DNA of 64,000 nt from Macrotrachela quadricornifera (taxonomy: Eukaryota > Rotifera > Eurotatoria > Philodinida > Philodinidae). The stretch covers positions 1-64,000 of the forward strand of contig JAJEKB010000498.1 in the NCBI GenBank assembly GCA_022393335.1, read 5' to 3'. The translations under genes and the position numbers were made by a program. Shown in pieces: positions 2,709 through 60,540 of this stretch. How positions within the stretch are numbered: position 1 is the first letter of the stretch; each line of letters begins with the position of its first letter. Under the pieces are notes generated by a model that ran no database searches, was not told the origin of the DNA, and saw only the letters and a program-made list of their open reading frames with translations.

Positions 2709-5700
2709 ATGGTTGACAGAGGTTTAATATCATCGATTAAACGAGATAAATTAATATTAAATAATAATAATCAATTCTGGATTGGAAATAATGAAGGTAT
2801 TCATGAAAAATTTTTAAATAAAAAAACAATTGACATAGCATCTCGTTTGGGACAATTTGCTTGGCGACAAGTAACATCATCAACAATCCAGTTACCTGTC
2901 ATATTCAGGTAAAATTTTTTATTAATTAGAAAAATTTTATCTTGACATTTTTGATTACGTTAAGTATTGGCAAAACATATGCTTTTGATTTGATTTTAGT
3001 CGGTATATTATTTTTATCGAATAATCCTTCTTTAAGGTTATATATTTATGAAAGAAAAATTTTTTTCTAGAAATAATTTTTACATAAGTATCTTTTATAT
3101 TTTGGTAATTTATAGTATTTTATCGGTTAGCTGATTTTGTTCCTATAAGTAATTGTTAATAACATTAATTTCATATGTTTTTCATTAGAATCGAAAAAAG
3201 ACCAGTGTCTTACATATACAACTAGACACTTTTTTTTTATCATTCTGTCATTAACACACGTTATCCACAAGAAAGGACAGCTATATATCATTCGATGTGC
3301 ATCACGAATCATACAATCATATGGCGTGATTTGTAATAAGCTACTGTCACTTAAAGATTCAGTAGTTATTCATTTTTCTTTTAGAAGGTCTCAATTCAAT
3401 CTGTATTACATAAGAGATGTGAAGCATAAATTCTAACTTAATATAAACAAATATATAATAAGAAATAACTTGTAGCGACTTCTTTTAAGACACTTCATAG
3501 CGCTATGTGATTTATGATACAAATCGAATGATATATACTTATTATGATCCGTACGCAATAAACTCATATTTCTCCTGTTCTTCTTCTTTCCTACTATTAG
3601 GCCATATATAAGATGAATTACCACTATTCTTATTAAGTAATGCATATATTATATTATTGGACTTTAACGGATGGGCTGTTTGTTTAATACTCGAACAGAA
3701 CGAGTGAAATAAAACCTAAATATTTTCGGGCGTCAATCATACTATGTTATAAAGAACACCTTGCTCCACGATAAAGTCAGGTTTTTTTTCATGATTGAAA
3801 GAAGTAGAACAAGGTTTTGTGAAACACGATCGAAAAAGAGTATTGAAATGTATAGGAGTAGCAATTTGCATCTATCCATTCTCTGCTCATTACAGACTGT
3901 GATAGATGTAGCCATCGAAACATTATAGATCGTGACAGATACCATAGCAACAGATTGTCATAGGCCAAGACCAACATTTTAATTATATTTTATACGGAAA
4001 ATGTGTTCTTTTTATATAAAAATATGCTATGCGTTGTCTAATGCAAAGCGATATTTGAAAAATGAACTTCTGTTCAGACATGATCTTATATTGAAGATGA
4101 TTATTTGCTCGGAGGACCAAGAGTTACCTATAATGTTACAGTGAAGTTTAATGTTCCTACGTCAGCACTAGCAGCTATATCGTATTTCACATTTTAATCC
4201 TGCAGGGATTACGCGACACAACTTTTTCTTCTGATGGAAAGAATAACTACACGAGAAAGAAGATGAATGTAGTTTTTGAAGTGTATCTTTATTTTTATTT
4301 TGGGTCATGCAAAAATTCTTGCGCAAATATTGTCGCATTTTTAACTGATAAAATATATTTTGAAAAAAAAAGCAAAAAACATTTATTCGAAGTCTATGTC
4401 GAAAACTGTGTATTCAAAAACCTTTTTGTCACGTTTTGCTTTTGACTAACCCGTATATCTTTGAAGAGCATTAAAATAAACGCTGTATGAAAGAAAAACA
4501 ACTTGTAACAGCTGTCGCAACCATTAGTAGTCTTATGGTATTGTGTGATTTCCTTCTCTTCATTATTCCATGAAATTATATTAATCTGTGCTCTATTATA
4601 CTATCAGTTCTATTTTCAACAAACTAGGCATAAAATATTCTGGAATACATTGAAATAACATTTGAAAAACTCACCTTCATGGCTTTTACCATTTTTAGGT
4701 CGATCTTGCTGTTTGTTTTACTTTGATGTTATTTAGAAGATTGTTGATTTTTAATTTTTTGTCATGTTATTAAAGCCAATACTATAGAGAATTAAAAGGC
4801 AATTCTCTCGTAGAAAAACAAACAGCAAAATACGAAAGTATTTATAAAAGCAAATCAAAAAATACTAATATCTCAATATTTTCTGTCGCCAACTAATTTG
4901 AGCTATTTTTACCGACTATATTTTAATGCTGTTCAAAGATGTGTCTGTTACTCAAAAGTAAAACATAACATACATTTTTGGAACAGACAGTTAGAAAGTA
5001 CATTCGACATAGACTTTAAATAGATATTTTCGCTTTTTTCAAAACATATCTTTCCCAATAAAAAATGAAACAACGTTTGTGCAAGAATTTTTACATCATT
5101 TGTAAGAATACCTAAAAATTTTGTCAAATCTGAAATGGTTGCATTACTAAAAATAAGTTTTTCACTACAGCCATACAAGCACTTTAATCATCATTTAAAA
5201 GTTTCGACCTACTTTCGAGAGACTATACAAGGACCCTAGTGACTCATATTTATTTTCTGTTGTTAAAGACAAAAAAAAGGATCATGCGCGTTGTTTCGAT
5301 CTGTAGCTAAAAGGCTGAAACAAAATCCTAATGGAGAAGTAGGTCAAATCAAAATTAAAAAACTTAGTCGAATGTATCGTTTTCCAGACTATTAGACAAG
5401 TTAAAACATATAACAATCCTGCAATCACCATGAAAATCATTTGAATTCACATTTTTATCGTAAATAGAACTCAATGAACTCTGATTGCAAGCACTAACTC
5501 GATCGACATTAGCTGATATATAATCAAGTGTAAATCGAGCACTATCGTCAGCATTTTAAGACAACCTAGAGACAATTTTTTAAATAAAAAATAAGACTTT
5601 TTTTGAAATAGTTCTCTAAACGTAAAGACCTACATATGGTCTAAGGATTCAACTGGTCGGCAAGTAGTGAACTGCATAGGATTCTGAAACCCGACTCCGA

Positions 5701-10934: not shown

Positions 10935-12272
10935 CGAAAAAATTGATACAAAAGAAAACGCTATTTCACTAAGTGAAGTGAGCTCTTTGAATGATGATTT
11001 TGATAAAATGCGTCTTGAATCTGCAAATTCTGCCGAAGAAATGTCTGATGACGAGGTAGACCCAAACATTTGAAATGAAATAGAATCAGAATCTGATGCA
11101 GAATTCATGGAAGATCATGGACTCGTTGAAGAAATAACTTCTGCTTGTGAAGATAATACGGTCAATCCTATCGATTGTTATCATAGACAAAATTATTGAC
11201 CTTATGGTTCATGAAACTAATCGATACGCGGAGCAATACTTCCAAGCTCATGAGATCAGCAGACGATCTAACTATTGTGAATGGAAACCAACTACTGATG
11301 AAGAAATGCTCAAGTTCTTTGGGATTATTATCGAGATCAGATTGATATCAATGCTGAGACTGAACCCCTACTGGAGCAGCAGTCAGTTGTATGGATCGGA
11401 GATTATTTGGCATGCTATGCCGAGAGACAGGTTTGAATTACTCCTCAAGTTTTGGCATTTTTTGAATAACGATAACAAAGATTCGAATCAAGATAGGCTG
11501 TTCAAGTTAAAACCAATCTTGAATTTATTGAAAGCCAGGTTTTTGTTAGTATATATGCATGGCTCGATTGCGAGTATCGACGAAACTATGATATTATAGC
11601 GAAGCAGGCTTTTGTTCAAACAATATATTCCCGATAAAGCGCACAAGTACGGCGTAAAGATGTACAAGATAGTGCCTACCAATGGATACATCTAGAATTT
11701 TGTGACTGTACGGGTCAACAAGATCCCATGGCAGGTCTTGGGCATCCTCAAACAGTGGTAATGAATTTATTGGATAGTCCTGATGGTATTTTTCTTGCGA
11801 AACAATTGATAGAACATGACACGCATCTTATTGAAATACTGAGAAGTAATCGTGTTGGATCAGGAAGCAAAGTTGTTCAGAAAAAAACTTAGCTCCAGTG
11901 GAATTTACAGATTATGGAACAAAGATGGTGTGAAACTGATGAAGTGGAAAGACAAGAAGGACGTTTTGATGATATCTACAAGGTCGTCGCATTCAGCAAC
12001 CGTGGTGAATATGCCATTCGAGAAGCTAAAATCGGGTTTGATACAAAAATCGGCAGACCAAATAAAGCGAAAACTTGTTGATCACAAGCTCGAAGAAAAA
12101 GAAGGATCTGCTCTTGATGTTCGATGATGCTGTGCTGGCTGCTACGATAAAATCAGAAAACAAGAATCAAGAGAAACAAGTGCAACGGTAGGAAAAAAGA
12201 TAAAAACATTCTGTGTTAATTGTGCCAAATTCTTGTCTTGATTGTTTTAACGAAAAGTATTCTTCTATATAA
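10935..12272 (+). pseudogene. Broken piggyBac-family transposase (DDE_Tnp_1_7)
   Basis: Coding similarity runs through several frames on the plus strand. An acidic N-terminal segment (about 10940-11150) is followed by the conserved central region in the frame 11147-11599, including the segment IASIDETMI that carries the first catalytic Asp. Further on come KAHKYGVKMYKI, a L..LRSNR-type block and WKDKKDVLMISTRSS (11852-12127), then a C-terminal Cys-rich segment CVNCAKF...CLDCF (about 12210-12260). In-frame stops (for example at 11077 and 11597) and several frameshifts mean it cannot encode an active enzyme. piggyBac enzymes cut and paste DNA at TTAA sites. No intact terminal repeats were recognised at its edges. 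Confidence 0.8.
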
Positions 12273-17079: not shown

Positions 17080-17924
17080 TTAATTTTGCCCAATACATTC
17101 TCCGTCAATATTAAAATTTCAATCTTGACTGGGCAAAATTAAAATTTTTTTTTTAACGAAAATGAAGAGAAGAAAGAAAAAAATGAAAGTATTAAGCAGA
17201 CAGAAATTAGTGGCGTAACCAGAAAAAAATTACAGAGGGGGCAATGCCCCTTCAAGCGTTTTGCGCACTAAGCGAAAAATTTCTCATCGAAGCGGGAGTG
17301 TCGAAAGTTGATAAGATCGGGGAGAAGGGAGAAAGGAGAGTTACAAATTTGTTGCATCGGGACAAGTTTTCATTTGTGCAGTCTGAAATGTACGAAACTC
17401 TTGTTTCTAACTGATTTTCATTGAAAAGTGTTGATGTTCGAAAAAAACTTAATCTAATTGTAGAAAAGTCAGAACAACTTCTCATCAAATGAAGGCTTTT
17501 TGCAAGTCTAAGACAGAACTTCTATTTTTTCTTATAATCTTGTTTAGAGAGAAAAGTATTGTCTCAAGAAATTCACAAGTTCCTCAGAACGTTTACCGGT
17601 GAAGACCACCATACTGGCGAGTTTTATTAGGATTAAAGCTTTTCACATAGGAAAAATATCTTTACAAGCAATTTAGGAAGTTATCGCAGTTGAAGATGTA
17701 CGAACTTATTGATTGTCGGACGAGAACTAATAGAAAGATGATTTTTTTCCAAATCTAAAAATCTTGGAAGTTTTGAAAACACCAAAAATATCCCTTTCGC
17801 AGAGTTAATGAAATTGCTGTCCGAATATTTATAAGAAAACTCGAGACTTTCGTGGTCTTAAATTTAATTTTTTTTGAAAAATCACTATTTTGACAGGATC
17901 AAAGTTTCTAAGTAGATTTCTCTT

Positions 17925-19004
17925 TTAATCCTATGAGTTCTGACATTTTTCTACCGAATTTAAGTTTGATAAAATATATTATTAAGTAGCTAGATGATAT
18001 TATCAAACCTCTGGTTAAGTTAAAACAAAAAACTATGTGATTGTATATTTATTCATTTCAATGTTGATATACATAGTTTTGATAATACAAAGAAAAATAA
18101 TTTTTTATACATAAACAAACACCACAATAAGTACACATCACATCCATTCTTTTTTCTCTTTGTTTCGTACCACAATAAGCACATCTACGACGAGTTGAAA
18201 TAACTTCTGGCATATGAGCTAACAGTTGTGGTGTTTTAGAATTTTCGTATAACTAATGTTCTTTTCGAAGCGCATCTTCTTCTGATTACTCATTGCCAAA
18301 AGGTCTTCCTAGCCTTTTTCTACTACAATAATTATCTATCAGTGCAGTGCTAATAGATGATATATATTCAATAATACTAATATTACTATTAGAAAGATGT
18401 CTATAATAGATAAATGAATTTACCAATGACATAGCAAGGAAATGAAAAAATATTCTTGTAAACTTGAAAAAGGGATCTATTGATCGATCTATATTGTTTC
18501 TTAATGCATGCTTATCGAAATAATTGAAAAAAGTACAGAAACTTGAGTTGTCAACTTTCCATTCTTCCCAGTCATCCATTGAATTTTGATTTTGTTCTTC
18601 GATTAATGAATCAATATCTTCAGAACTGTTACTTTCAAATTCATGAGAACTAATTGTACTTTCATTTTCATCAGATAAGATTTCGTCAGAATTTCAATCC
18701 ATTATCTTTTAGAAAATAGTTAGGTTTCATCACGGCACAATGAGTCAAAACACGAATTTTTCAGAAATTTAGATTTTTCAAGAAAACTTTCTGAAATCAA
18801 ATGAACATACTTCAGTACACTTTTCGATATTGTTTATTCATACGGATGTCTGTACAATTTTGCACAAATATGTCTTAACTACGAACATTTGTTCAAAAGA
18901 TTCTTTCTAGATCTTAAAAACCACAAACATATTTGAAATTTTTTGAAAATTAGAAATTTTTACTAGGTGGGACATATATGTCCTACCAGGACTCAAAGGG
19001 TTAA
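17925..19004 (-). mobile_element. Nested piggyBac-like element, internally deleted
   Basis: Bounded by TTAA at 17925-17928 and 19001-19004. The right end read inward is CCCTTTGAGTCCTGGTAGGA and the left end reads TCCTATGAGTTCTGACATTT, a diverged match. TTAA plus CCCTTTGAGTCC-like termini are characteristic of piggyBac elements. Inside is one minus-strand transposase remnant (18058-18702). At 1,080 bp it is about half the usual autonomous size. Confidence 0.7.
18058..18702 (-). pseudogene. piggyBac transposase remnant: acidic N-terminus joined to C-terminus
   Basis: A single frame of 215 codons from ATG 18702 to TGA 18058 is interrupted by three stops: codon 3 (TGA), after RPFGNE near 18286, and near 18255 (TAG). 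It begins with an acidic Ser/Glu/Asp segment typical of piggyBac N-termini and then passes directly into the post-catalytic helices (FFHFLAMSLVNSFIYY). It ends with a Cys-rich zinc-binding module, C-x2-C ... C-x2-C-x2-C-x-C (18105-18200). The DDD catalytic core is absent, so the copy arose by internal deletion and later gained stop codons. The frame is still shared on both sides of every stop. Confidence 0.75.
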
Positions 19005-19817
19005 TGAGACGAACTCTCAGAATCGCTTCTGGGAATCTATAGTTTCAATATTTTTTCCACCGAAGGCGGCTACGCTCGCAACAATTATTTAGAAAAAGTT
19101 GTTATCTCCCGTGCGCGTAAAATTAAATGTTCTCTAAGGTCATAAACATACCATTTTACAGTGGATAAATAGGAAACTTCGTCTTACTTCGATGAAAATT
19201 TACAGGGGGGCAAAACCATTTACAGAGGGAGCAGTGCACCCCCGTGCACCCCCGGTGGTTACGCCACTAACAGGAATGGACAAGCGATTAAATTCCAAGA
19301 TTTCATTGAAGTGAGGTAATAATCCATCGAAAAATTTTTCACGTTAAGAAAAAATGATTTGGCTTGTCCATAACTGTAAGCGATGCAAAAGTCTTTGAAA
19401 AATCGTTAGATGCTGCTAAAGCACTTAGGCGATTGGCAAACCAATTGGATTTTCTTGTTGTAAAGAGCAAAGTTTGACTGATAAATTTGTAACAAATATA
19501 TTTTCTAATCATGTAGGCAAAGATAAAAAATGTTATAAAATTCTCATACTCACTGCTGCCTTCAGAAAAATATACCGGTACAAAAGTTGTAGACGAAACT
19601 TCCCTCATCCTAACAACAAAAAAAAACAATTAGGTCGAACGTAGGCAAAGTGGTTTAACAATGTTAGATATTATTCCGATTAGGTTTGTGTCGCTGGATA
19701 TTCTAGTTTTTTTCATCTCTTTCGTTATAAGAAAAAAATTTTAATTTTACCTAGGCAGAATTGAAATTTTATTTTTGACTGGGTAAATTTCAAATGTGAC
19801 TGAATTTCAATTTTGCC

Positions 19818-28026: not shown

Positions 28027-28577
28027 TCCTTGCAAAAAATAACTAAACTAAGAACTTTTTCACTAATTAATTGTAATGATGTGCTATTTGAGTCAGTTTA
28101 GGGATATTTGAATCGACAAAATCCAAGTTGGGTGCTGAAAACAATTGAAGCTAATCCGTAGTCATTCATAATCATCCGATACCGATAACTTTAAACCGGT
28201 GCAGATTCAAGTTAAAGCTTTCTTAAATTATTATTGTACGGGCTGAATATATTAGTTGTCAATTGCCCTCTTTCATGATTGCCAAATAGTAGAAAGATGA
28301 CCGTTGATAAGCGCTTGATCAATCATAATAACATCCTGTTGCGACCACAGCGTAGAACATACTTTCGTATATCAGTTCATCAGAAAATAGAATGGGGTTT
28401 GTCTACTGCGCTAAACACAAAACATAATGCTCTTCCCACGACAGTGGAATCTATTGAGATTCTCATGTATATGACCATATTAACATTATATCTTATCTTT
28501 ATGAAAGTAAATCTACAGCTTGCTCAATCTCAATACAAAGAGATTTGAATTGGAATTTTATTCATAAGGAGAACATA

Positions 28578-29425
28578 TACACTGCTGGCCAAGAGTATCC
28601 TCCATCCCCTTGAATCTCAATCACAATATGAGTTATAAATTTGAAAACTAGTGTGTACATAAATCTCGATGAATGCTGATTAGCAGAGCTAGTTTACTGT
28701 AACTATCAATATATAACAAAGCCGGCCTATTCCATTATGTGCTTCATAAATTAGTGAAAGTTTAACATACTGACTTCAAACTTATAGGAAAGATTGTCCT
28801 ACAGATCATCAGTATTCTCTGAAATGTTTAACCTTATATCTTTTACTAAAAAGAATTGACACTATGTTCAAGTATTAGATGTTGTCATAGGTCTCGTTAT
28901 TCGAATAATCAAGTAATTGACGTCATCTTTTTGGTAAATAGTTAACATATCAAGCAGCACAGTTCTAACACAAAAAAGTTACAAAAATCAGTGAATATCA
29001 TGGAAAACAAGACATAAACTCTTATAATCGAAGTTTTTCTTTATTCTGACAAAGCTGAAGGAGATAGGGACTGAGAATATGAATTCCCTATACGTTACAC
29101 AAACACATAACGATTTTCGAACTTGAGCATAGTGGCAATCTGTCTAGTAAAACATATAAGACTAAACATTTCGGAGAATACTAAGGATCTGCAGAACAAC
29201 CTTTCTTGTAAGTTTGAAATTGATGTGTCAAACTTTTACCGATTTATGAAGTATACGATGGAGACAGATCTCATACATTATAACTTTCTTATACTTCATG
29301 CAGTTAGGTTGTGGATGGTATCGCTGACTAGCATTTATCGAAAACAGTGTACACACTAGTTTTCAGATCTACATCTCATATTGTGACTGAAATCCAGGGG
29401 CTATATACTTTTGACCAGTAATGTA
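28578..29425. mobile_element. Tc1/mariner-type fold-back element with ~300-bp arms
   Basis: Termini TACACTGCTGGCCAAGAGTA (28578) and TACATTACTGGTCAAAAGTA (complement, ending 29425) resemble the CACTGCTGGCCAAAAGTAT ends of Tc1-like transposons, and the outermost TA at each side fits the TA target. The inverted similarity continues for about 300 bp (28578-28870 against 29115-29425), leaving a loop of about 240 bp. No transposase is encoded. Confidence 0.75.
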
Positions 29426-29888
29426 TAAGTCAGAAAAAATCTTGAATGATTTGTGCGTAAGTTACTTTTTCGCCGAGACATCGTCAATTTAAGACAATAG
29501 CTCTTATACAAAACCACATTTTGAGACATTTTTTCTAACGAGATGAATCGGAGACAAGTGCAAAACGAGGTCACTTGCTGGTTGATTCGTGGATCTTTGT
29601 ATATTTCAATTAGGTTCTTATATATATATATACTTAAGTGTACTGAATGCTTTCCCCAAATTTTTTTTAGAGAACATCACTGGTCTGTCACTCTTAATGT
29701 CAAATTGTAACCAAGTTCCAGACGGCTCGATAAATAATTAATCCAAAAGTCTGTGAAAATTTGCAGAGAGATCCAGTGCACCAAGTAAATTTATATTCAG
29801 ATTAAAGAGAGAAAAGAAGAGAAATGTTAATTTTCATTTTTTTTGTAACGAAAACAGAAAATCAAACACTTTAGAACATTTAATAGTG

Positions 29889-32154: not shown

Positions 32155-33421
32155 TTAACTCGCATCGATACTTTTTACTGGTTCCACCCAATCATAGTTA
32201 CCAACTACTTGTAAAAGCCAATTTTGAGACGGATCATATCCAATAAAATCTTGAGGAAAACCAACTTCGAATTCATACGCTTTATTGATTTCTTCGATTT
32301 CTTCTTTACTTAAACGTACTTTCAATGCTTCGATGTTATCTTGTAAATGCTCCACTTTTCGAATACCAACAATAGGAAAGATATACGGTTGTTTTGCCAT
32401 AACATAAGCAAGAGCAACTTGAGTGAGAGAAACATTTTTACTCTTGCCAATTTTGTTTAAGACAGTAGTCACAGCTTGATCCGCTTCAGATGGACCTAGA
32501 AATATTTCGAGAAAATGACTTTCAGTTGAAAACTCGTCATAAAAGATATTGTTAAAATCATTTAAGAATCTTACCTTTGACTGGACCAATACTTGCTCTT
32601 CCTTTATCACCAGTCTTCTCCATGGCTTCTATTTGTTCTTTTGTTTTGAAATTACCTCTACCTAATGCTCCCCAAGGTGCAAAAGCCATTCCTTCATCTC
32701 GTATCATTGGAAAAATCTCTCTTTCTGCATCACGTTTAGCAGCATTGTATAAACCTTGATAAACCGAAAATTGACGAAGTCCATGATCTCGAGCATATTG
32801 ATTTGCTTTGGCAACAACCCATGCCGGTGTGTCACTAACACCTAAGTATAAAACTTTACCTGCTTTTACTAAATGATCGAGCGATTGCATCAATTCAGCA
32901 ATCGAACAAGTATAATCCCACCTAAAAGTTTATAAGGATTAGTTTTGTTCTAACATGTGAGAAAAAAAAAGAAATGATTACCAATGTATGTAGAGTAAAT
33001 CGATATAATCGGTTTGAAGTTTTTTTAGAGAAGCAGCAACACTTTCATGTAAACATTTAGTTGAATTACCAGCAAAATTGACATGAATTGGTTGTTTCTT
33101 CCAATCTGATCGATATCCACTGGAAAACTTAGTTGCAATAACCATTTGACTTCGATTCTGTCGTTTAGTCATCCATTCTCCAATTATTATTTCACTCTGT
33201 TCATCTTGATAATTACTTGAAGTATCAATAAAATTTCCACCGGCATCAAAAAATGCATCAAGAATCTTGAATGAATTCTCTTTTGATTGTGTACCCATAA
33301 ATTCCCAAACATCGCCAAGTGACATTGCTCCAAGACATAATGGTGATACACGAACAGCTGCAGTAGGTGCCAAAACACGGTATCGTGCCAGAGTACTAAC
33401 AGGAGGTGGTGCTGGTTCCAT
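32155..33421 (-). CDS. Aldo-keto reductase, fungal aryl-alcohol dehydrogenase type
   Basis: Exons 32982-33421, 32575-32921 and 32155-32495 join through short GT-AG introns in consistent phase to 1,128 bp (375 aa). It is an NADP-dependent aldo-keto reductase TIM barrel. The catalytic tetrad is visible as Asp66 (GGNFIDTSSNY), Tyr71, Lys98 (VIATKFS) and His146 (LLYIHWWD). C-terminal features are SLTQVALAYVMAKQPYIFPIVGIRKVEHLQDN and the PSQNW tail. Length and the MEPAPPPVSTLARYRVL N-terminus resemble fungal aryl-alcohol / norsolorinic-acid-type reductases, which reduce aromatic aldehydes or polyketide carbonyls. Acquisition from fungi is plausible because bdelloids carry many such genes, but this is inference. 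The gene looks intact and stands alone. Confidence 0.9.
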
Positions 33422-34683
33422 GTTTTAAACTATGAGTATCTAAACATAAGAAATATTGTGATAACTGAATTTTATAATGATGAAGTAATCAAGTAAAAGA
33501 GTACGATTGTTTTGTGTTTATACGTTACTACAAAGCGTGGTAAGAATGTTAGGAAAAGAAACAGAAACTGTCGGTATTTATACCACAACGTATTAACACA
33601 AGTTAATAAGTATTGAATGAAAGAGAAAAAGAACGGCCTTGTTATACCTCTAAAAACACTTTAATGCTGTACTTTTTTTTTTGCATTACCGTGTGATGAC
33701 GATGCATAATTTACTACACCATGTTTCGTGTTTCGCTACGAATACTGCGTCATTATGAAAAATTTTTTTGTTGATAAAAGTGGAGAAAATATATGATCAT
33801 TTCAGTAATCAACGAGGATTTTCGAGCATAATCTTTATTTTATATGCGAAAAAAATATTCAAAATTCAATCGAACAAACTATGATAGGTGTAAAAACAAT
33901 ACAATAATCGGTCGTTTCTATCAATTTAAGAAGCAAATTTACTCTCGTATCAATATCAGCTTCTTGACACAACACTTTCAGTTGTAAATATTTATTTAAT
34001 TTTAAGAAAATATAATTGTGCTCGATGCTCGAAGAAATTGTGTTTTCAACACTTTTTTACCAATTATCATTTCCATTAAAAACACAATAAATATTTTTAC
34101 GAATCGTGGCTCTATAAAACTGCTCCATTACTCCCTTTATCACAAATTGCTATTAATATGTGTGAAAAACGGAATAGAAAGAAAAAACCAACATCTTTAA
34201 AAATGAGTCTTTAAATCGAAAGCGGGCAAAAACCATTGTGATATTCTGAATCAGTACCTTCGATTATCTATTTTTAGCTGAGTTTCAGCTCAAAAGCGAG
34301 GAGACAGTTGGTGGTCTTCTCTCTTGAGATCCTTCAACACAATATTAAAGAGATAATTGAAACAAATACTTAATTGATAAACATGTGCTTATGAACTTTT
34401 CAGTTTTCAAAGCCTTCATTCCTTTGATAGAAAAAATATTGGAACATGAAAAAACGAAATAAGTAAAAAAAAATTGATTTACACGACGTAATAAAAAGAA
34501 GAGAAATGAGAGAAAAAATAAACTTCAATTATTTCAAAACTTGTTTTATTCGGCAATAAATACATAGACAGTAGATGAAATTTTGTTTTTTTATTTGAAA
34601 AATTTTACATTTAATGAAAAATACAATTACTGTTATTTTAATATTTTTTTTATAAACTTGAAAATGTTTAATAGATCTGTTGA
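33422..34683. other. Intergenic stretch
   Basis: AT-rich. It contains the 5' flank of the minus-strand reductase and the 3' flank of the next small gene; no other feature recognised. Confidence 0.4.
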
Positions 34684-36371: not shown

Positions 36372-37774
36372 AATTTTTTCAGTGGTCCAAGCAGGGTTCA
36401 TATTAGACAGGTTTTATTATATATTAAAAAAGCATGCAAAATACTTTCAATTTTTTAAAAATAATCTTCAAACTAAATAAGAAGTATATTTTTTGAGATG
36501 GATACCCATTCTGAGTCACATTCAGCAACATATTTTCCTTTTCGATAAAAATGACAACCATCATTATTTACTGGTCGAAATGTAATTGCTTCACATTCAC
36601 TATGCTTTTGACATTCTTCAAAACATTGTGCAATCGATTGGACTTTAACATATTGAAAATGATTAGCTAAACGAATTCCTTGATAATAATGAACATTGGT
36701 ATTCTTTGCTTTTAAAGAATTAATCATTCCATTAATATCAATCCATTTATTGAATTTTAAGATAATTTCGCCTGTTAATACTTTTGGATCAGAAGTTAGT
36801 GTAAAATTGGAACTGATATCACGTCATTTTCGCAAATGTGACCAAAATTGTATTGATTAATCATAATTATAAAATAATTGACTTCTAAATTCTGGATAGA
36901 AATTATGTTGATTTCGAAGTCGGTGTGAGGATAAGACTTGAAAGTCAACAAATGTAGTCTTCAATTTGTTCCAGATATACTTGTGCTTCTATTGTATTAC
37001 CAGGAATATTTTTGTGCTGCCATAATATTGAAGAAGTAGCTGTTCGGCGAGGATCAGCAATTCTTATGCTAGCAGCCACTGTACACCATCCACAATTTAT
37101 TGTGCTTGTGTTTTGTGGTGCATCATTCACAACTGTAAGCTGCCATGGCTCTATTCTATTTAAAAGGAAATCTATTTCTGCATTTTTCCTTTCTATATTT
37201 GCCTGATTTCTTTCTTCAATGATTCGATTGATACGTCTGTTAATTTCATCGTAACTGTAAGTGTTGAGAAAGTGATTATTCATTTCATTGTTAAAGTCCC
37301 AACTCGATGATGGACTTTCGTCTAGATCCATAGCTTGAACTCATTTCGTGTTATCAGGAAGGACATGCTAATATTAATATTTATTTATTATTATATACTC
37401 TCCCTTCTTTTATTATATATATATATTTATATAATTAGCAAATTAATTAAATGTTAAAGTTAAAAACTTTTTATTAAAATTTTTGGTTTAATTTCTATTT
37501 TTAATTTGACATTTAAGATATATTTATTTATTGTAATTGTTAATTAAGATGGACGTAAGGATTTTTATTATGTGATAAATATATTAGTATAATGAAATAA
37601 GTAAATAAATATAGGCGAACCAAAATAAAAATAAATAAAATAAACAAATGAATAAATAAATATAAGCAAAATAAATAAATAAATGAAAAAAGGTAAAATT
37701 AAAAAATGATATAATAAATATACATATAATGAGAATATGTGACGTTTCGACAATCGAAGTAGTCTTCGTCGAAC

Positions 37775-38820
37775 AACCGCGGTTTCAAGTACTGCTGTTG
37801 TAAACGGTTTTTAATACCGCGATGTGTTCGTTGGATAACCGCAATTTCAGATACCGTCGTTCTAAGTGATTTTCAATACCGCGGTGTGAGACACCACGAC
37901 CCTAATGGTTTGAAATGCCGCAGTGTACCTCTTGGATAGTCATGGTCTGAGATATCCTGAATTATAAATCAGATAGATAGATAGACAATTAAATATCATA
38001 AGTATTAAAGAAGGACATCATTAATTAATTAGCCAAATATTCATTATATTCATTTTCTTCCTGAAAATTATATATATATTTATCTAGTGACGTTTTGTCA
38101 ATGACGTTGATTCCATCACACTATTTTTTATGTAAAAATTTATAACAAAATGATATAAAACATGTATATTTTTTCAACCTATTGATAGTGGAACGAACGA
38201 AAGAATAATAAAAGCAAAATATTCGTCCAGCATCACAGTTTTGTTCGTTCCACTACCTACAAAAAAAATTTAAGATAAATCGCTACTTACCGCAGTGTTT
38301 TTAAGTGCACCGCGGTTTCTTGATGGCGCATCACGATGTACTACAGGATACCTCGGGTGCTTCTGGTTTCTTTTAACCGCGTTAATTAAAAACCGCGGTG
38401 CGCTAGTTACTAAACGCGGTTCTTAGCGGTTTTTAATAGCGTGACTTCAGACATTAGGATCCTAAGCCGTTTTTAACAAATAGGTAAATAAGTAGTTAGC
38501 TAGATAGATAATTTATAATTAGGGATATAGATAGATGGTTAGTTAAGCGAATAGATAGAGCAGCGGGTAGTTAGGTACATAGACATAAATACATCAATTA
38601 AAATAAGCACCGGTTTCTAAAAACGCGGGAATCAGACCGTTTATGAGGTTTCTCAAAGCTGCTGAATACCGCGTCAAATGAGTATCGCGGTTTTTAACGA
38701 TTTTGAAGTACCACATAAACGGTCTGATTTCCTCTGACTTGAAAAACCATTTGAAACCGCGGTTTCATTTACCGTCAAATACTGCGGTTTTCTGATCAAA
38801 TTTTTTCCGTGGGCAGTAGC
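37775..38820. repeat. CCGCGGT-rich core repeats of the long-TIR element
   Basis: About 62-66-bp units starting AACCGC(G/A)(G/A)TTTCA at 37775 and 37837, with a decayed third at about 37903. Many further scattered copies of ACCGCGGTTTTTA-like words run to 38800. The CpG-rich palindrome CCGCGG is striking in this AT-rich setting. Confidence 0.6.
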
Positions 38821-39118
38821 ATCGTCTTGCCGTCCTACTATCATATATTTAATATCAAAGAAAAGGAAATACAAATAAAAATTAAACTAAATAGTAAAAT
38901 CAGTACATCTTTATACAACATTCGACGAAGACTACTTCAATTGTCGAAACGTCACATATTCTCATTATATGTATATTTATTATAGCATTTTATAATTTTA
39001 CCTTTTTTCATTTATTTATTTATTTTGCTTATGTTTATTTATTCATTTATTTATTTTATTTATTTTTATTTTGATTCGCCTATATTTATTTACTTATTTC
39101 ATTATACTAATATACCTT

Positions 39119-40267
39119 AGTCGACTCTCCCTCGAAGGATCCGCGGGCAGTCTCTTAAATACTTCGAAATCCTTGGGAAGTCCTCAGGAAGTCACCACAC
39201 TAATTATTGGGAAATCCCTAAACTAGAAAAACTCCCCAGGGACTCTCTGGAGATTCCCCATGAAATTACTAGGGATTTCCCAGTTTTCAGAGAGTAGGGA
39301 GAAAATTAAAAATTCCCGAGGAATCCCCACATAAAGACTCCCTAGAGAGTCTTATTCTTCTGATCTAAGGCCACTAAGTGCATAAATGCTTTGAATAGAT
39401 ACTAATACACATATTTTTAAATACAGTCATATGATTAGCTGTAGAGACGTCCGATCGTACAGAAAGAAGAAAGAAGCTGAAATAAAAATATTAGTCGTTT
39501 TTGTTTCAAGCTAGAAAGTAAAATAAAAACACATATATTCTTAGAGACAATGTGTATACAAACTGTGAATTACTATTTCTTTACTAAAACTTTTATGGGT
39601 TGCGGACATTCTGCACTAGGTCATTCCGAACACTCGGTCATATGTGCTGAGTTTGGAATGACTTTTTGTCCTGGACAACTTTCATTACGAACACCCTGTT
39701 TTTTTCCTTATGTCCGGAGATCGTAATGAACATCTAATTCCGAACACCCTGTCGTTTTTGCCTTATATCAGGAGATCGTAATGAAGAGGTGGGGCGAAAT
39801 GTCCCTTTCTCACTTTTTTTTATAGAAGTAAATTTTTGTCTAATATTTTTAGAGTTCGTGACGTTTTTCAGTGACATTATCACTGAAATTTGTCTTCGCT
39901 ACAGTAAACTGGTAGATAGGTAAGTAGGTACGTATGTACGTAGATAGATAAATCCGTAGAGAGATAAATATATGGATATGTAGGTAGTTAAGTAGGTAGG
40001 TGAATAGTTAGGTAGGAAGGTAGGTAGATAGATAGCTAGTTAGATAGATGGATAGGTGAGTTGGTAGATAGATAGATAATTTACCTACCTATCTATCTAT
40101 CTATCGTTGTACTTAAGTGGAAGCAAGATTTCAGTGATAATACCACTGATATATGTCATGTGTTGGTCTATAACGATTCAATCTTCACTTTTCAAACCGC
40201 TCCCTAAATAATCCCTGGGGAGTTTTATCGGGGATTCTCCGGTGATTAGAAAAGGGAGAATGGACTA
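39119..40267. mobile_element. 1.15-kb secondary element in the right arm (TA target)
   Basis: Ends CCTTAGTCGACTCTCCC (39119) and GGGAGAATGGACTAGGG (to 40267) are inverted repeats. Comparison with the uninterrupted left arm shows the empty site reads ctaata-TA-ttta, with TA present on both sides of the insertion. The interior has palindromic CCCCAGGGACTC-type segments, a roughly 60-bp direct repeat ending GGAGATCGTAATGAA (39696-39785), and a GATA/GGTA microsatellite (39905-40110). Confidence 0.7.
39905..40110. repeat. GATA/GGTA microsatellite with terminal fold-back
   Basis: An imperfect tetranucleotide array (TAGG, TAGA) ends in an inversion, GATAGATAGATAATTTACC then ACCTATCTATCTATC, giving a hairpin. 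Confidence 0.7.
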
Positions 40268-40902
40268 GGGTATTTATTACATAATAAAAATCCTTACGTC
40301 CATCTTAATTAATAATTACAATAAATAAATATACCTTAAATATCAAATTAAAAATAAAAATTAAACCAAAAATTTTAATAAAAAGTTTTTAAGTTTAACA
40401 TTTAATTAATTTGCTAATTATATAAATATACATATAATAAAAAAGAAAGAGTATATAATAACAAATAAATATAAATATCCATAGCTTGACTATTGGCACT
40501 AGAAACAGCTCTAGTAGCAACAGCAGCCCTAGAAACCACCGAGCGAACCGCTCCATTAGCAATCACTGCATTAACAAAAGTTCCATCACTCTCTTTAATA
40601 CTATTACTCGCCACACCACTCGCTGATGGCAATACTTTTACTGGCGGGCCAGAACCAGCTATAATCCCTCTATTGACTCCTGCATTATAGGTCCTAGAAG
40701 CACGACGTACTGCACTAGCGGATCCGTGAGCTATACCATTGCTTGCAAAATTCGCACTACGTCCCATGCTACATGGTGCACTAACTAATCGCTTTATGAA
40801 TCCAACGATGAATGCATCAGCAGTGTGACATTGAAGCAGATGGATAATAAGAATAATAAGCAGTGCATTGCTACTGAATACTTTAACTCTTTGTTTCAAC
40901 AT

Positions 40903-52533: not shown

Positions 52534-55213
52534 CACAATGTGTTTAAAAGTGCATAAACGATTGATATTTACTATAATCAGTTGTCGTGTCACTAAAACT
52601 AAAATCAAATAATATAAATGTAAATTGAACATAATTTAATTTACGAAATCTCTGAAAGTTTCGTATTTTTTTCTTAATAACTTATTCTTTGTCAAGAGCA
52701 ATTTAAAAATCGAGAACCACTTATAATCGATTCGTTTTTGTATTTCCATGATAGATCTTAACGGTAAAGTTTTTTGAACAACTAGGTTTGAATGTTATCC
52801 ATTGCTAGAACATTGGAAAAATTTGGCTGACTGAATTATGACGAAACTTCTCCAGATGTCCCATCACTTTTAAAATCCCATTTTGAACATACATTGACAG
52901 CTACGAAATTAGAATAATCTTAAAAAGGTTTATTTACATGGGCTTTAATTCCTAAGATACCAAAGTTTTATTAGATTTTTTTGGCAAAAGCTCGTAATTT
53001 CCTCAGATCACTATGGAAATCATTTTTCTAGTTTTGAGTTAATACTTTCGACAACTGAAGTGTTATTACAAGACAATTCTCTTAGAAATAACGGAGCATA
53101 CAAGACGTTTCTGATTACATCTAATGGAGATCGTGAACTATTAATTCATGTTGATTGTTGTCATGGACTGTCATCAATTCATATTACCTTTCCTACTTTC
53201 CAACAAACTCAGATACAAAATCGTAAGAGAAAAATATTCATTTTTCATTTATTTTTTTCCTACCATAAATCCGATTTTCAACTGCTATTAACCACTTCGA
53301 AAATAAATGAAAAAATATCTTCTATATTCATATATATATATATAGAAAAGAGAAAAAATTTTGCTGGTTTATAAATTTTATAAGCTTATAAGTGAGATAA
53401 GATGTCCGTGTGAACATCCTAGGAAAAAAAATTCGATCGGACTCCGAGTTGCGAATTTTTGATTCGATCTGATAGTCGGATACTCCTACGTTTTCGGTTA
53501 TCGAAATCAGTAATTATTTGGATTGTTAAATTTCGATGGGATTTCTATAGGATTCTATCTAGCTTTGAATCTGTGGTCAATCTTATACATTAAGATTATA
53601 TTTGGAATCTAAATTTTACCGAATGTGAGCCGAAAAGTCTTACGAGTTGTAGCCACTGGAAACTGATGTATTTCGTATGGATTTTGGATCAGAAGCTGTC
53701 GTAGATCAGTTATTTTTTTCTATCCTATAATGTATGCCAAAAGAAATCCGTATTCTGAGAAACTCAAAGTAGTTCGGAAGCCTTTCCAGAAACCTTTTTT
53801 TAGTTTTCGAGACGGTTTCTGATCTTCTAAAACGTTACCAAGAATACTTTATTGTTTTCCGAAATTTCGAAAATTTTTCGGTTCTCGAGAACTCCAATTT
53901 CGATGGGTGTAGGGTTCTATAGAATACCTTTTTACCATTGTCGAAAATCTAATTACTATCTTCAGAAACCGATAGGGTATTTCAGGGAACCGATTCCTCC
54001 TAAAACTTGTTAGAGTATCAAAGAGATATGTGAAAATACTTTTTTCAGTTTCCGAATCATTTTATCGGAAACCCTTTGGGTTTTGAGCTTTCTGTCACTC
54101 GAAAAGATATAATAGAAAATCCAAACTAGTTTACGAGTTTTATTTAACTAGAAGGCACATTCTAGAACTTTGAGATTTTCACAACGAGTTTTCAAGACTT
54201 GCACCGGGTCAGCCAAAAGTCAGTTAACCCAAGAAAATATTCAATCTTTTCTTCGGTTAACTGACTTTCGACCTACCCTGAATTGTACACTAGAAAATAA
54301 GTCATAAAGTTTTATTGAGGATATTCTAAAGAGTAGAAAATCAAATTTGATTTTCTTTTTATTATATAATATCTTTCATTTTCTTTTATAAAGTAAAAAA
54401 AAATGATCATAATTTTGAAAAATACTATTATTCATTTGAACAATCAGGTGATCTAAAAAAAATTAGCCAAAATGAAAACTTACTTTCTATATAAATGATT
54501 AAATGATTTAAATAGCAAAAATACATTGAAATAAAAATATTTTTCATTAAATTCGGAAATGACACATTATTGTGCGTGAACATAATATGAATTTATTTCA
54601 TTGCACGCGACACACTCTACATATCAACCCTAGTAATCAATTTTACTGATTAATTTTTTAAGTTGATAATAGAAAACATAATATGTTGTATTCAATGTAA
54701 TGATCTTTCTGAATCGAAGTTGATTTTCGAATTTTATTCACATTCGACGTTTATTTTCTACTTTTTAGACAATAAATCTTCTTGAAAATTCAACCATTTT
54801 TAAATTTATAGAAATTCATTGAATAAGTCACAAAACTTTTAAAATGCTTTAGCTTATCTAAGATCGATTTTCCAAAAAGTAAAATTTATAAAAAAATTTA
54901 GTGTACGTGCATGGAAAAATTTTAATCTTTAGATGCTTCTGGCAAGTGCCGATATACTAGTTTAAAACATTAAAATATGTTGGTCTTTTCAATAGAATTT
55001 AGTGCAATGCGGATAGAATCTAAATATTTTGTTTTTCAAATATCAGTCAAAATAACGATGACTCATGTTTCTGTCACTAGAAAGTTGTGTTTAATAACAT
55101 CTGTACAGCAATTATTGGATCAGTTAACATAAATTACAAGGAAAAAATCAAGGTTGAGCGAAATACCTAAAAAGCGTAAATTATCATATTTTTGAATTAT
55201 TAAGTTAACTACT
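52534..55213. other. Intergenic stretch before the viral-gene element
   Basis: No gene recognised. An open frame of 104 codons at 53060-53374 has no domain. A 24-bp-arm hairpin lies at 54206-54278. Confidence 0.4.
54206..54278. repeat. Isolated hairpin
   Basis: AAAGTCAGTTAACC (part of 54206-54229) and GGTTAACTGACTTTC (within 54255-54278) form a stem of about 24 bp with a 25-base AT-rich loop and a few mismatches at the outer end. Confidence 0.7.
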
Positions 55214-55348
55214 TGTTATAGAATATTTGTAAGACACATTCCATAAAGAATTATTCTATATGCTTTTCTTTTCTTTTAATCTTATATGTATGTTTTCTCT
55301 TTTGTTCTTTCGTTCGTTACACATGCATATGCACAACGACCCCATTCC
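55214..55348 (+). repeat. Left terminal inverted repeat of the viral-gene unit
   Basis: Starts TGTTATAGAATATTTG and ends CCCCATTCC. Matches the complement of 56408-56543 along its full length. Confidence 0.85.
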
Positions 55349-55490
55349 TCGTTTGTTAGAAAGCAATTATTAATCAACTGAACAATACTTTATTAGCTTG
55401 AAGCTTTATCTGTATCGGCTCTTCAGACTTTAGAAGAAAATTGATTCAACAAGCTTCGCAAGACTAGAATTCAAATCCGTTAGAAGAAGC

Positions 55491-56243
55491 ATGACAAATA
55501 CTCAAGCATCCGGATCTGCTTCTACTAACGATATTCTTCAGCTAATTAATGATCTGACATCAACATGTAATTTTGCTACAGACCTTGGCGATTTCGTTGA
55601 TGCAATTGTTGTAGCTAAAGAAGTTATGAGTAAAAATGGATGGCGTAAGGATGTACCTTTAATGATTGCACTTTTCTTTGAAAGAGGCAACAACATAGGT
55701 AAACTTCTAGGCAGTGATGGTAGAATCTCACCTGCTGGCCAGCAACTAGTAAAATCATTAAAGAACAAGTACAACTTGCAGAGTCGGGCTAATGAAGTGG
55801 CAGGCCAATCAACTCGTAATGCATTAACTCTAGCACGCGTGAATCTTGCATCTCCTGCATTATCTTTAAAATATTCTGTACATAGACGCAATCAGCCTAT
55901 AATTTATAACGGACCAAAATGTCTTGCAATGCAAGCTTTTGCTTCAATAATCCCGCAAGGTAATCACTTGGACGTGCTCCGATCAGCTCATGCATGTGTT
56001 ATGCATCGTCTTTCATTAGCAATCAACAGTACCTATAAGGCCATGTCAAAAATTGATCAGCACAGAACAACTCTCAATTACGTCAATGCCGGTATCAATA
56101 ACAGTAAACTTGATCAAACTGATCGCTTTGATCTTCTTCATAGTCTTCAAGTCATCATCTCAACAGGTAATTCATCAACTGCTGCAGATGGAATAAAAGA
56201 ATTAGCCGAAGAGTTCGATGGTTTGGCTAAAGCTCAAAGCTAA
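55491..56243 (+). CDS. Endogenous phenuivirus-like nucleocapsid protein (Tenui_N type)
   Basis: An intact intronless 250-aa frame, close to the usual 240-260 residues of phenuivirus/tenuivirus nucleocapsids. The family pattern is visible along the whole length: a helical N-terminal arm; the W-x-KD-x3-MI-x-L-x3-RGN block (residues 51-67); a KYNL helix (93-96); the LTLARV core (112-117); a proline-bounded F-A segment (150-155); an A-H helix (166-180); and a final helical lobe (205-245). In the virus this protein coats genomic RNA and oligomerises through its N-terminal arm. Here it lies in cellular DNA between terminal inverted repeats. No polymerase or glycoprotein gene accompanies it. The open frame suggests recent arrival or retention. 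An alternative, unrelated cellular origin is unlikely given the ordered motifs, but no alignment was run. Confidence 0.85.
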   Translation: MTNTQASGSASTNDILQLINDLTSTCNFATDLGDFVDAIVVAKEVMSKNGWRKDVPLMIALFFERGNNIGKLLGSDGRISPAGQQLVKSLKNKYNLQSRANEVAGQSTRNALTLARVNLASPALSLKYSVHRRNQPIIYNGPKCLAMQAFASIIPQGNHLDVLRSAHACVMHRLSLAINSTYKAMSKIDQHRTTLNYVNAGINNSKLDQTDRFDLLHSLQVIISTGNSSTAADGIKELAEEFDGLAKAQS

Positions 56244-56407
56244 TGATCATCATTTATACCCGTGATATGGAAGTCAGATTTGAAGTCATTAAGTCAGATC
56301 TGGATTTAGCCTTTAGAAGATGATGAGAAGATCTAGATTTAGTGCAAAAAAACTAACTAGCATACGATTACTGCGAAGTTATTAGTTTTATGCTAGTTTC
56401 TGAAAAT

Positions 56408-56543
56408 GGAATGGGGGTCATTGTGCATATGCATGTGTAACGAACGAAAGAACAAAAGAGAAAACATACATATAAGATTAAAAGAAAAAAAAAGCATATA
56501 GAATAATTCTTTATGGAATGTGTCTTACAAATATTCTATAACA
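56408..56543 (-). repeat. Right terminal inverted repeat of the viral-gene unit
   Basis: Begins GGAATGGGGGTCATTG and ends CTATAACA; inverted copy of 55214-55348. Confidence 0.85.
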
Positions 56544-57079
56544 CTGCTTTCTCTTATTCATTGAGAAAGCTTTTAAAAACTTTATGAAAAGAATGATTGT
56601 GTGAGAATCTGAGAAACGGTTTGACCATGAGTAAATATAAACGAGCTACATCAAATAGTGGACTAAGTTTACAACCGGACGTCAACAGTTGTTTATGGTT
56701 ATTGTTAAAATTGAGCAACAATTCCGTACAGTTTTTTTATTGACAGATATCCGACGAGATCACAATGTACAACTGTCATCAATGGTATACTGAAGAATTT
56801 GGATATTGAATATGATGCGAAAAATAATGCGAATGAATATGAAAAGTTCTTACAAAAATGCAATTATTATATGTTATAGAATTTATAGCGTGAGTCGTGA
56901 ATCTCAAAATACACACGAGAACGCTAAAAGCTTAGTGATGAAAAAAATTCGTCGAAATGAAATATAGATATTCGAGAATGAATTCCGAAAGAAATATAGA
57001 AGTATATCTAATGGCACAAATGTCAGAAAGAAATCTATTAAAAGTGGTAAACTATATAAAATAATTAGAAAGATATATA

Positions 57080-57115
57080 TATTTAGGTCAGTTCAAAAGT
57101 AATGGTGGAGTTACT
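57080..57115 (+). repeat. Mariner-like terminal sequence
   Basis: TTAGGTCAGTTCAAAAGTAA resembles the ends of mariner elements (TTAGGT...CAAAAGTAAT). No matching second end or transposase was found. Confidence 0.3.
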
Positions 57116-57299
57116 GTCATTCCATAAAAAAAGCTTTAACAAAATTTCGCTCTATATACTTTTCAAGATAAAAGAATGTTCTATGTTTCTATGCTATTCG
57201 ATCATACTTCAACTAATGTTACAATAATAAAATTTCGATAAGATTGTTTTGTTTACATGTGTTATATGATATCATGAATCCTAACGAATATTTTTATGA

Positions 57300-57785
57300 A
57301 TAACTTTTGATAGAAACAAGATAGAGGACCGTAGTGTTTATCATTGGAAAGAGGAGAAGAAGGTGTATCAGATTCTGCATTATAGGTATTTTTAAATATT
57401 AATTTTTGAAGTATTTGTATTCAATCTTCTAACTATCGGGAAAATGCTTTTATTATGAAAAAGGAAACGATATCAGAGTAAGATTTTTTTCTCAAATCTT
57501 GGTAGAAAATCGCTTTGGAAGCTCGATTAGAATACTTATAATTCATCTTAGCATTCCATACTTTGTAGATCTTTGAGTTTTCGTTTGAATTTATATTTGA
57601 TAATTGAAAATTGACTCTAAACAACTTGTCAGATAGGTTTGTTCTTGAGAAGATCATTTGAAAACCTTATAAAAAATAGAGCCAGAAATTCTAGGATATT
57701 CACTTCAATGCGTTTTTATCTCCTCTTTCCAATGATGAAAATCGCAGCTCTCTATCTTACTCCTACCAAAAATTATTTAGAAAAT
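57300..57785. mobile_element. ~480-bp inverted-repeat element
   Basis: The left end (57300-57360) contains AAGATAGAG and TCATTGGAAAGAGGAGA; the right end (57710-57778) contains their complements TCTCCTCTTTCCAATGA and CTCTATCTT at matching spacing. The interior shows no gene. Confidence 0.6.
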
Positions 57786-58189
57786 ACTCACCCCTCTTTT
57801 TTTTTCTGAATGGGCAATAGTTAATTTCTCTTTATCGCTTTTTTCAGCAATAACAATAACAACAGCAGTGGCAGTATTTCTAACACTAAATGAAGTTGAA
57901 ATAATTGGATAATGTTAATTCAAGAAGAAAGCATAATCTATTTCGTAGCTCAAGACGCATATGAAATAGAAGTAGAAAGAATAAAATGTTATGGACAACT
58001 TGGATCATGAAATAGATGAATAAAACAAACATTTTTTCAGTTTGTGTCTTTTGGTTCTTGATAAAGTCGTTTTTCTTCTATTTTGAAGTTATTTTTTATA
58101 GATTTTCCTATATCTATCAATAAAGCTTTGTTGTGTCTGTTTCCTATATGATTTTTGAATATGTTCTAGATTATACTTCGATTGCATAA
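57786..58189. other. Intergenic stretch
   Basis: Nothing supported beyond AT-rich sequence. Confidence 0.35.
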
Positions 58190-60540
58190 CGATGTTAACA
58201 TGTGCAAAATTATTTGAGAATGAAAATCATTCTACTCTTCAAATTAAAAATGAATTAATTGAAACAATTATAAATCATAATCAAGGTAATCAATAGTACC
58301 ATAATTTATATGACAAATATTTTTAATTTTAAATCTTATCGTCTATATGTATAATGTTTAGTGTCTACCTGTCTGCACTAGGTTAAAGATTAAAGGTCAA
58401 GAATTAATAGTCAAATAAGGCTGTAAGAGGAAGGCGCTAAGAACTACTATATAAAGGTACCTATAGGTCCTGAAGAGTGTAAGACAACAAAGGAATAAAG
58501 CTATAAGGACATAAGGCTACATTGACTATTAAAATATGTGTGATACAAATGTATGAGGTCGTTAGGCTTTGATCTATAAACATAATATTGAATATTTGTA
58601 TGTCTCTTATTCAATGAAAAGTTAAACATCTGAAGTTATACGCTAAAGGAGGAACTAGTCGTGTAGTGTGTGAGAGTGTGATACTTTCATCAACAATTGA
58701 ATGTTCGTTAACATTATTAATAACAACTACTATTAATTCGATAGGGAGCTAAAGAAAAAAGAAACGCTTTTATTCGTTACCTATTTTTCTCTATATTTCT
58801 ATATTAAAATTTCTAGTCAGATCAAAATGAATAATCTTCCAATAGTCTTCATTTCTTTAGTTCAATATCGTTGAGTTCTTCATTATTTAATTTTCTTGAT
58901 AGCTATGAGCAAATAATAGAAGAACGTCAGCAATCGATAACGAATAGTAAGGTGCAAGATACTGAATCAAAATAACATGAGAAGTAACAAATAAACTTTT
59001 CTTTTTATTTTAGTCTCGTTCACTCTCTCTCTTTCTCTCTTTCTCTAGTATTAAATAGTACAAAAGATAAAACGTTGCTCAATGACTTATTAGCATCATC
59101 AATAATAAATAATATACCTAACAGTAATACACATCACATCCTAAACTATAATTTCATTTATATATTTCACTTTTCTGTTCACAGATATTTAATAATGCAA
59201 GAATTTCCTCTAGTGCAATGATAGCTGATTTAACTATAACATCCTATGTGAATCGACCATATCTATCCACATCGATGATCGTCCATTCGCAGAATATAGC
59301 CATATGAGTAGGTAAAATGAAAAACAACAAATAAAAGAATAGCAAGAAATTTGATAAAAATTTCTATTTGTTTAAATTCAACCATGAACGACATTGCAGA
59401 AAAATACAAACTTGATCTTGAAGGTATACGAACTGATCGTTTACGAGCGAATAAAACCAGAATTCGCATGTCAACAAAGTCATTTGCTATATTATGCTAG
59501 TTTTCAACATCTAATAAGAATCTGATGCAAAGATGCATTGATAGCTTAACAATGTATCAATAATTGTTTTTTTTCTTTTTCTTTTTATTGCTAATTTCAG
59601 TTTTTTAGAGAACCGATTTGATGAATACAATTCGAAAAAAATTTCGGTCAAAAATAAAAATTCGATATAATTCTATTAATAAAAATACACATACAAATAT
59701 ATTGCAAAATACAACAATGATTCAAATAGTATTTTTTAAAAATGTACCAAAATCTACATGGTTTCAGACGCGATAACAAGTAATAAATATCTCGAGCTAT
59801 AAGATAGACTAAAATATGAAAATAAATTGTTAATTTAGATGAAGCTCATTGTAATTATTATAAAACAATGAAAACACGTGCTTGGAATGAGTTCATTCAA
59901 AAAAATAATTTCCGATTTGCGTATATAGACAAAAGTAGGTCGATCTGAAATTCTATATCAATATATTAAAATCTAGAAAAAGATTATATCGAATTCGTCA
60001 GATTTAAACCATCTGAAGAAAACAATGAAGTTAATTGATCACATTGTTCATTAGTTTGCCATCAACGGTAACATAATATTGTCAGTGAAGAAGCTATTAT
60101 ATAAGCCGATCATTTGTCTGAAAATCAACTAGGTACCATGTTGTCATATCATCAATATCAAAATAAATTAATATAAAATAAATAATCTAATATTTTAGTT
60201 GAACAGTAAGTAGTCAATGAATCAATAGTTTATACTGTGCCATCTTAAGAAGATATAATAGTTACATATGCTCTTCTTATAGCAAAGATTGGTATTCATC
60301 AAGCAATGGCATGTGTCGAGAAACGTATGCTTTGTAAGTTTATGTTTAACAGTCAAAGATCTGAAAAATAAATTCTTTCTTTTAATCGATTCTACTAAAG
60401 CTGTTTTTTTCCTTATCTATAGTTATTTACAGACATTTGAACATATATACAATCAAGAACAACAGCAACGTTCATCTTACTTAATATCTTCCCAAATGAC
60501 AACGATCAGCAAAAACTTTAGTAATAAGTAGTAATATAAG
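58190..60540 (+). pseudogene. Decayed multi-exon gene debris
   Basis: Several short stretches look coding but do not join: 58192-58283 (MLTCAKLFENENHSTLQIKN, ending at a GGTAATC donor); 59838-59930 (LDEAHCNYYKTMKTRAWNEF); 59990-60170 (YIEFVRFKPSEENNEVN, then further segments separated by stops); 60230-60333 (EEDIIVTYALLIAKIGIHQA, ending at TTTGTAAG); and 60420-60531 (QTFEHIYNQEQQQRSSYL). In-frame stops such as TAA at about 60246 break otherwise coherent frames. The parts share the plus strand and spacing of an exon series, so a single old gene is likely. The family is not recognised. Confidence 0.35.

Follow-up and report, generated by a model that had tools for sequence, protein, structure and literature searches.

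The window analysed here, a 64-kb stretch of DNA (64,000 nucleotides; GC content 30.6%) from the rotifer Macrotrachela quadricornifera, carries on its plus strand an uninterrupted phenuivirus-like nucleocapsid (N) gene (55491..56243), enclosed by a pair of nearly identical inverted repeats. The N frame runs from an ATG at 55491 to a TAA at 56243 through 250 stop-free codons, confirming what an earlier, sequence-only reading of the locus had described; it is open from 55434, and between this position and 55491 the ATG at 55491 is the only one in frame. Per start point, the chance of a 250-codon open frame is ~2e-8 given the stop-codon frequency of the window and 6e-8 given the base composition of the frame itself.

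The phenuivirus/tenuivirus-type identity proposed in the same reading is upheld by both profile and structure-database matches. In the profile search that it had suggested as a check, N matches Pfam family Tenui_N (PF05733) with E=4.4e-14 and 53.1 bits, above the cut-off of 25, and the alignment pairs N residues 44-220 with profile positions 42-223/224; among other Pfam rows at E<=10, there is a KH domain alone (E=0.052, under its cut-off). In the PDB, E<=0.1 is reached by 13 distinct chain sequences, every one of which bears the name nucleocapsid, nucleoprotein or NP protein, the best match being phlebovirus N chain 4j4w (E=1.4e-9), with 3lyf at E=4.5e-7; at E<=1, a 14th sequence (E=0.46) is an unrelated enzyme subunit that we take as a chance match. 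The length of N (250 aa) compares with 245-257 aa in the 13 nucleocapsid chains. A single-sequence AlphaFold2 model of the protein is mostly helical, with a mean pLDDT of 38.8 that makes it unusable for the 5H+3H fold and the N-terminal arm. Judged from its sequence, 55491-56243 is almost certainly an endogenous phenuivirus-type N gene; with this identity comes the need for a capture into DNA, a point of the earlier reading that is supported along with it.

R64, K67 and K74 of RVFV N form a positive patch that is described as kept across phleboviruses and has been probed with a triple mutant (PMC3093367), and substitution of all three is reported to abolish RNA binding (PMC5764413). Counting correspondences on the printed alignment to 3lyf, these residues become R65, N68 and R78 in the window protein, so that two of the three are basic and the RNA-binding K67 is replaced by asparagine. 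F149 and N181, listed with Y30 and D34 as conserved genus-wide (PMC5764413), are retained as F150 and N179, while Y30 and D34 fall outside the segment of N aligned to RVFV N. Because of the two basic cleft residues, the conservation of F150 and N179 and the basic character of the protein (pI 9.28), RNA binding by the predicted N protein is plausible.

The inverted repeats around the gene did not figure in the earlier reading. A blastn self-comparison pairs a 135-bp left arm (55214..55348, plus strand) with a 136-bp right arm (56408..56543, minus strand) at 97.8% identity, the two being 2 substitutions and 1 indel apart; their score is 229 bits, and the 3-kb region, resampled 100 times under a first-order Markov model, never gives an inverted repeat above 46.4 bits. 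In this alignment similarity ends sharply at the outer and inner edges of both arms, a 155-nt, 92% version of the arms being an ungapped extension beyond the outer edges. Between them, the arms bound a segment of 1,330 bp (about 55214-56543) in which N is the sole frame of at least 120 aa, followed in length by a 117-aa frame antisense to N. The gene is separated from the left arm by 142 bp (55349..55490, plus strand; GC 33.1%; no significant fold, z = 1.06) and from the right arm by 164 bp (56244..56407, plus strand; GC 32.3%), the latter with a short imperfect hairpin near its 3' end and an RNA fold that is not significant overall (z = -1.32; 21/200 shuffles fold as well). Neither AATAAA nor ATTAAA occurs between the N stop and the right repeat; within 55152-56900, AATAAA is found at 56192 in the gene, and ATTAAA at 55757 in the gene and at 56477 in the right repeat. 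The complementary ends of known bunyavirus segments span no more than from a few bases to some tens, and eight 7- and 8-base phenuivirus/bunyavirus segment-end motifs have no occurrence on the plus strand of 54802-57000; the repeats therefore do not look viral.

N is contiguous with the surrounding window DNA, in which an LRR-coding frame ends 2.7 kb upstream of the left repeat. Seven of the 32 non-N frames of at least 45 aa in 53600-58600 were compared with Pfam and, at E<=0.1, matched neither viral nor transposase families; the weak rows among them, EF-hand_10 (E=0.018) and Calpain_III (E=0.085), are both under their cut-offs. Across the window, six of ten larger frames match Pfam at E<=0.001 (transposase, ammonium transporter, laminin-G-like, aldo/keto reductase, P450 and LRR) and four do not, a content compatible with a rotifer source. 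The aldo/keto reductase match (PF00248, E=3.2e-32) lies at 32981-33424, within a set of minus-strand frames at 32155-33424 that is possibly a horizontally acquired gene. The codon usage of N is closer to a pool of seven window frames than to uniform usage (log-likelihood -270.3 vs -290.5), a fit that AT-richness alone could explain.

The near-identical ends of 135/136 bp resemble those of a terminal inverted repeat (TIR) DNA transposon, and other hallmarks of such elements were looked for at and around the locus. A candidate 7-bp target-site duplication (55208..55214 and 56543..56549), of which the last base of the left copy and the first base of the right copy are common to the repeats as aligned, matches at 6/7 positions and is not significant, being equalled or beaten by 9.3% of 20,000 random site pairs; a 9-bp duplication was not found at the element edges. 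The 1,330-bp segment contains no transposase. At 11138-11596 the window carries a transposase piece (PF13843 DDE_Tnp_1_7, E=1.1e-26), presumably piggyBac-type and a possible sign of nearby DNA transposon activity, and inverted-repeat pairs recur, eight in all. Together, the long near-identical ends, their sharp limits, the other inverted-repeat pairs of the window and the transposase piece argue for a transposon, and we consider it reasonably likely that the 1.33-kb unit is a young non-autonomous TIR element with viral N as its sole gene.

Neither arm recurs in full within the 64-kb window, where the best other match to the arms measures 31 bp (38188-38218; 84% identical, E=0.01). This match falls within a large inverted-repeat element at 37371-40478, whose left arm (37371-37773) pairs with 40271-40478 (93.4%) and 38921-39114 (96.9%), so that about 1.15 kb of other sequence seems to interrupt its right arm; the longest frame of the element has 81 aa. 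An inverted-repeat pair of ~73 bp (79%) at 17104-19779, possibly another transposon, surrounds a 135-aa frame that has no Pfam match at E<=0.1, and more diverged, MITE-like pairs lie at 28573-29430 (71%) and 4307-5096 (74%), in which the longest frame measures 82 aa and 69 aa, respectively. A frame at 96-458 encodes a FLYWCH zinc finger (PF04500, E=1.5e-9), a domain often linked to transposons.

Relatives of the gene and of its repeats were sought in large sequence collections. Against 5.8 billion proteins, N shared words with 871 candidates, none of which aligned at E<=1e-3, nor did any at E<=10. In viral contigs, 23 pattern matches yielded 0 confirmed related loci, and a scan with a degenerate motif gave 0 hits. 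An exact 27-base repeat probe was found neither in viral contigs nor in prokaryote genome contigs (0 in each), as expected for a eukaryotic element. Because the collections searched are not built of animal genomes, this lack of relatives is weak evidence.

If the two arms were identical at insertion, their divergence dates the last insertion of the unit; the viral capture may be older. The three differences over 136 positions (divergence 0.0221, with the indel counted) correspond to 8.3 expected substitutions in N per lineage, and 3.2-3.9% of substitutions in this gene create a stop. Under neutral decay the probability that no stop arises is then 0.73-0.77 per lineage, or 0.53-0.59 with the full divergence, and survival of the frame falls to 0.42-0.44 and 0.17-0.19, respectively, when frameshifts are included at a rate taken to be 1 indel per 10 substitutions. 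If 0.063 is assumed as an upper value for the divergence, the corresponding figures are 0.40-0.47 and 0.16-0.22 for stops alone, and 0.08-0.10 and 0.01 with the assumed frameshifts. The sequence-only reading had taken the intact frame as a sign of recent capture or selection. This does not follow from a frame whose neutral probability of staying free of stops is 0.53-0.77 at the observed divergence (survival of 0.17-0.44 with the assumed frameshifts), and we reject the argument that an intact frame implies selection: since neutral survival is not improbable at the observed arm divergence, the open frame is not evidence of host use. At the upper divergence of 0.063, it would be some, and the lower survival values obtained with frameshifts leave selection some probability.

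These results bear directly on the possibility that N is a domesticated host gene that selection maintains for an antiviral, RNA-binding function, a possibility compatible with the transposon-cargo history and with either of the other insertion histories considered below. The intact frame, the basic pI, and the retention of two of three cleft residues and of two conserved core residues are in its favour, as is the low neutral survival at 0.063 with assumed frameshifts; set against it are the not improbable neutral survival at the observed divergence, the lack of a relative for dN/dS in the protein collection or the viral contigs, and the missing polyadenylation motif between the N stop and the right repeat. 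On balance we regard domestication as rather improbable.

The strongest rival to the transposon-cargo reading is a nested insertion, in which viral cDNA landed in a pre-existing short TIR element (MITE) and the two have never transposed together. N is bracketed inside the arms by an exact 10-bp direct repeat (55428-55437/56311-56320), which could be the duplication left by a retrotransposon-type insertion, and the missing tail is no objection, because bunyavirus mRNAs are without poly(A) tails. However, 28/300 control pairs (9.3%) have a direct repeat of at least this length; the 10-bp repeat was accordingly rejected as an integration scar, and within the arms there is no point at which the edge of a separate insertion can be fixed. 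Such a history is unlikely in our estimation. Alternatively, the locus could be a plain endogenous viral element whose flanking repeats are the product of a foldback rearrangement or of an inverted duplication at the locus, with no transposon involved. Although the lack of both a significant target-site duplication and a transposase agrees with this explanation, it must account for arms that are sharply bounded on their outer and inner sides and for the further inverted-repeat pairs of the window, and it requires the coincidence of an inverted duplication on both sides of the gene; it thus appears improbable. Finally, an assembly or contamination artefact would have misjoined viral cDNA to host DNA, the joins being those of the assembled sequence; but an RNA virus enters a DNA library only after reverse transcription, and one would not expect its cDNA to come with 135-bp repeats that run on into AT-rich DNA at either side, which makes an artefact highly improbable.

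Endogenous bunyavirus-like N genes have been described in crustaceans (PMC4573495) and phenuivirus-like ones in ticks (PMC10675110), the latter report observing that a link to mobile elements could be assessed by further analysis of flanking DNA. Like the gene presented here, these are nucleocapsids of the same kind of virus residing in animal DNA; unlike its 135/136-bp arms, transposon-type inverted repeats are not described around them in the available portions of the two papers (PMC4573495, PMC10675110). Mobile elements with genes of negative-strand RNA viruses are also on record: bdelloid TelKA elements carry a paramyxovirus-type fusion gene (PMC5408684), and hookworm Atlas virus, another case of a phenuivirus-related gene in an animal mobile element, has a phlebovirus-like envelope (PMC9094657). 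TelKA, however, is of the LTR retrotransposon type and its gene is env-like (PMC5408684), as opposed to the 1.3-kb inverted-repeat element of the present locus, which has a nucleocapsid gene and no polymerase, and Atlas virus has its envelope gene in a retrovirus-like element (PMC9094657). Among the matches listed in a literature search that covered few subscription journals and no preprints, there was, judging by titles and the opening of abstracts, neither a phenuivirus nucleocapsid in a rotifer nor, within the same scope, an inverted-repeat transposon that carries a gene of an RNA virus. In the parts of the literature thus covered, endogenous bunyavirus-type N genes are already known, and their enclosure in transposon-type inverted repeats was not found.

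In its architecture, the unit recalls Pack-MULE and similar gene-carrying TIR transposons, which are non-autonomous, have long inverted repeats and contain captured foreign coding sequence. The cargo of Pack-MULE-type elements consists of host gene fragments, whereas here it is viral N, and no 9-bp duplication was found.

The following history would fit the transposon-cargo reading. An mRNA or genome segment of a phenuivirus-like virus would have been converted to cDNA by a host reverse transcriptase, and the N cDNA would have ended up between DNA transposon ends, giving rise to a 1.33-kb non-autonomous element (about 55214-56543). The element, N gene included, could then have been mobilised in trans by the product of a transposase gene located elsewhere. 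Its last insertion would be recent if the arms were identical at that time, since the ends are still nearly identical, and the N frame is perhaps intact simply through the youth of this insertion. If expressed, the basic N protein should bind RNA, and it might interfere with related viruses.

A bolder reading, which we regard as decidedly speculative, is that an RNA-virus nucleocapsid now serves a family of DNA transposons as a working part. Intact N genes would then be found genome-wide between transposon ends, either because the protein coats the nucleic acid of the element or because transposition makes a self-spreading immune cassette out of one captured antiviral gene. In such a case, a read-through transcript with 135-nt complementary ends around N would form a bunyavirus-like panhandle that N could coat.

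The inverted repeats shift the question posed by this locus from why N was kept to whether N is transposon cargo, and open a plain test between many intact copies under selection and one young decaying passenger. They also make the captured N gene datable, with the arms acting as a clock of the last insertion. Mobility of the element would mean that DNA transposons are able to take up and disseminate genes from RNA viruses without a DNA stage, and such genes would have a route through the genome, and perhaps between genomes, that is separate from retroelements.
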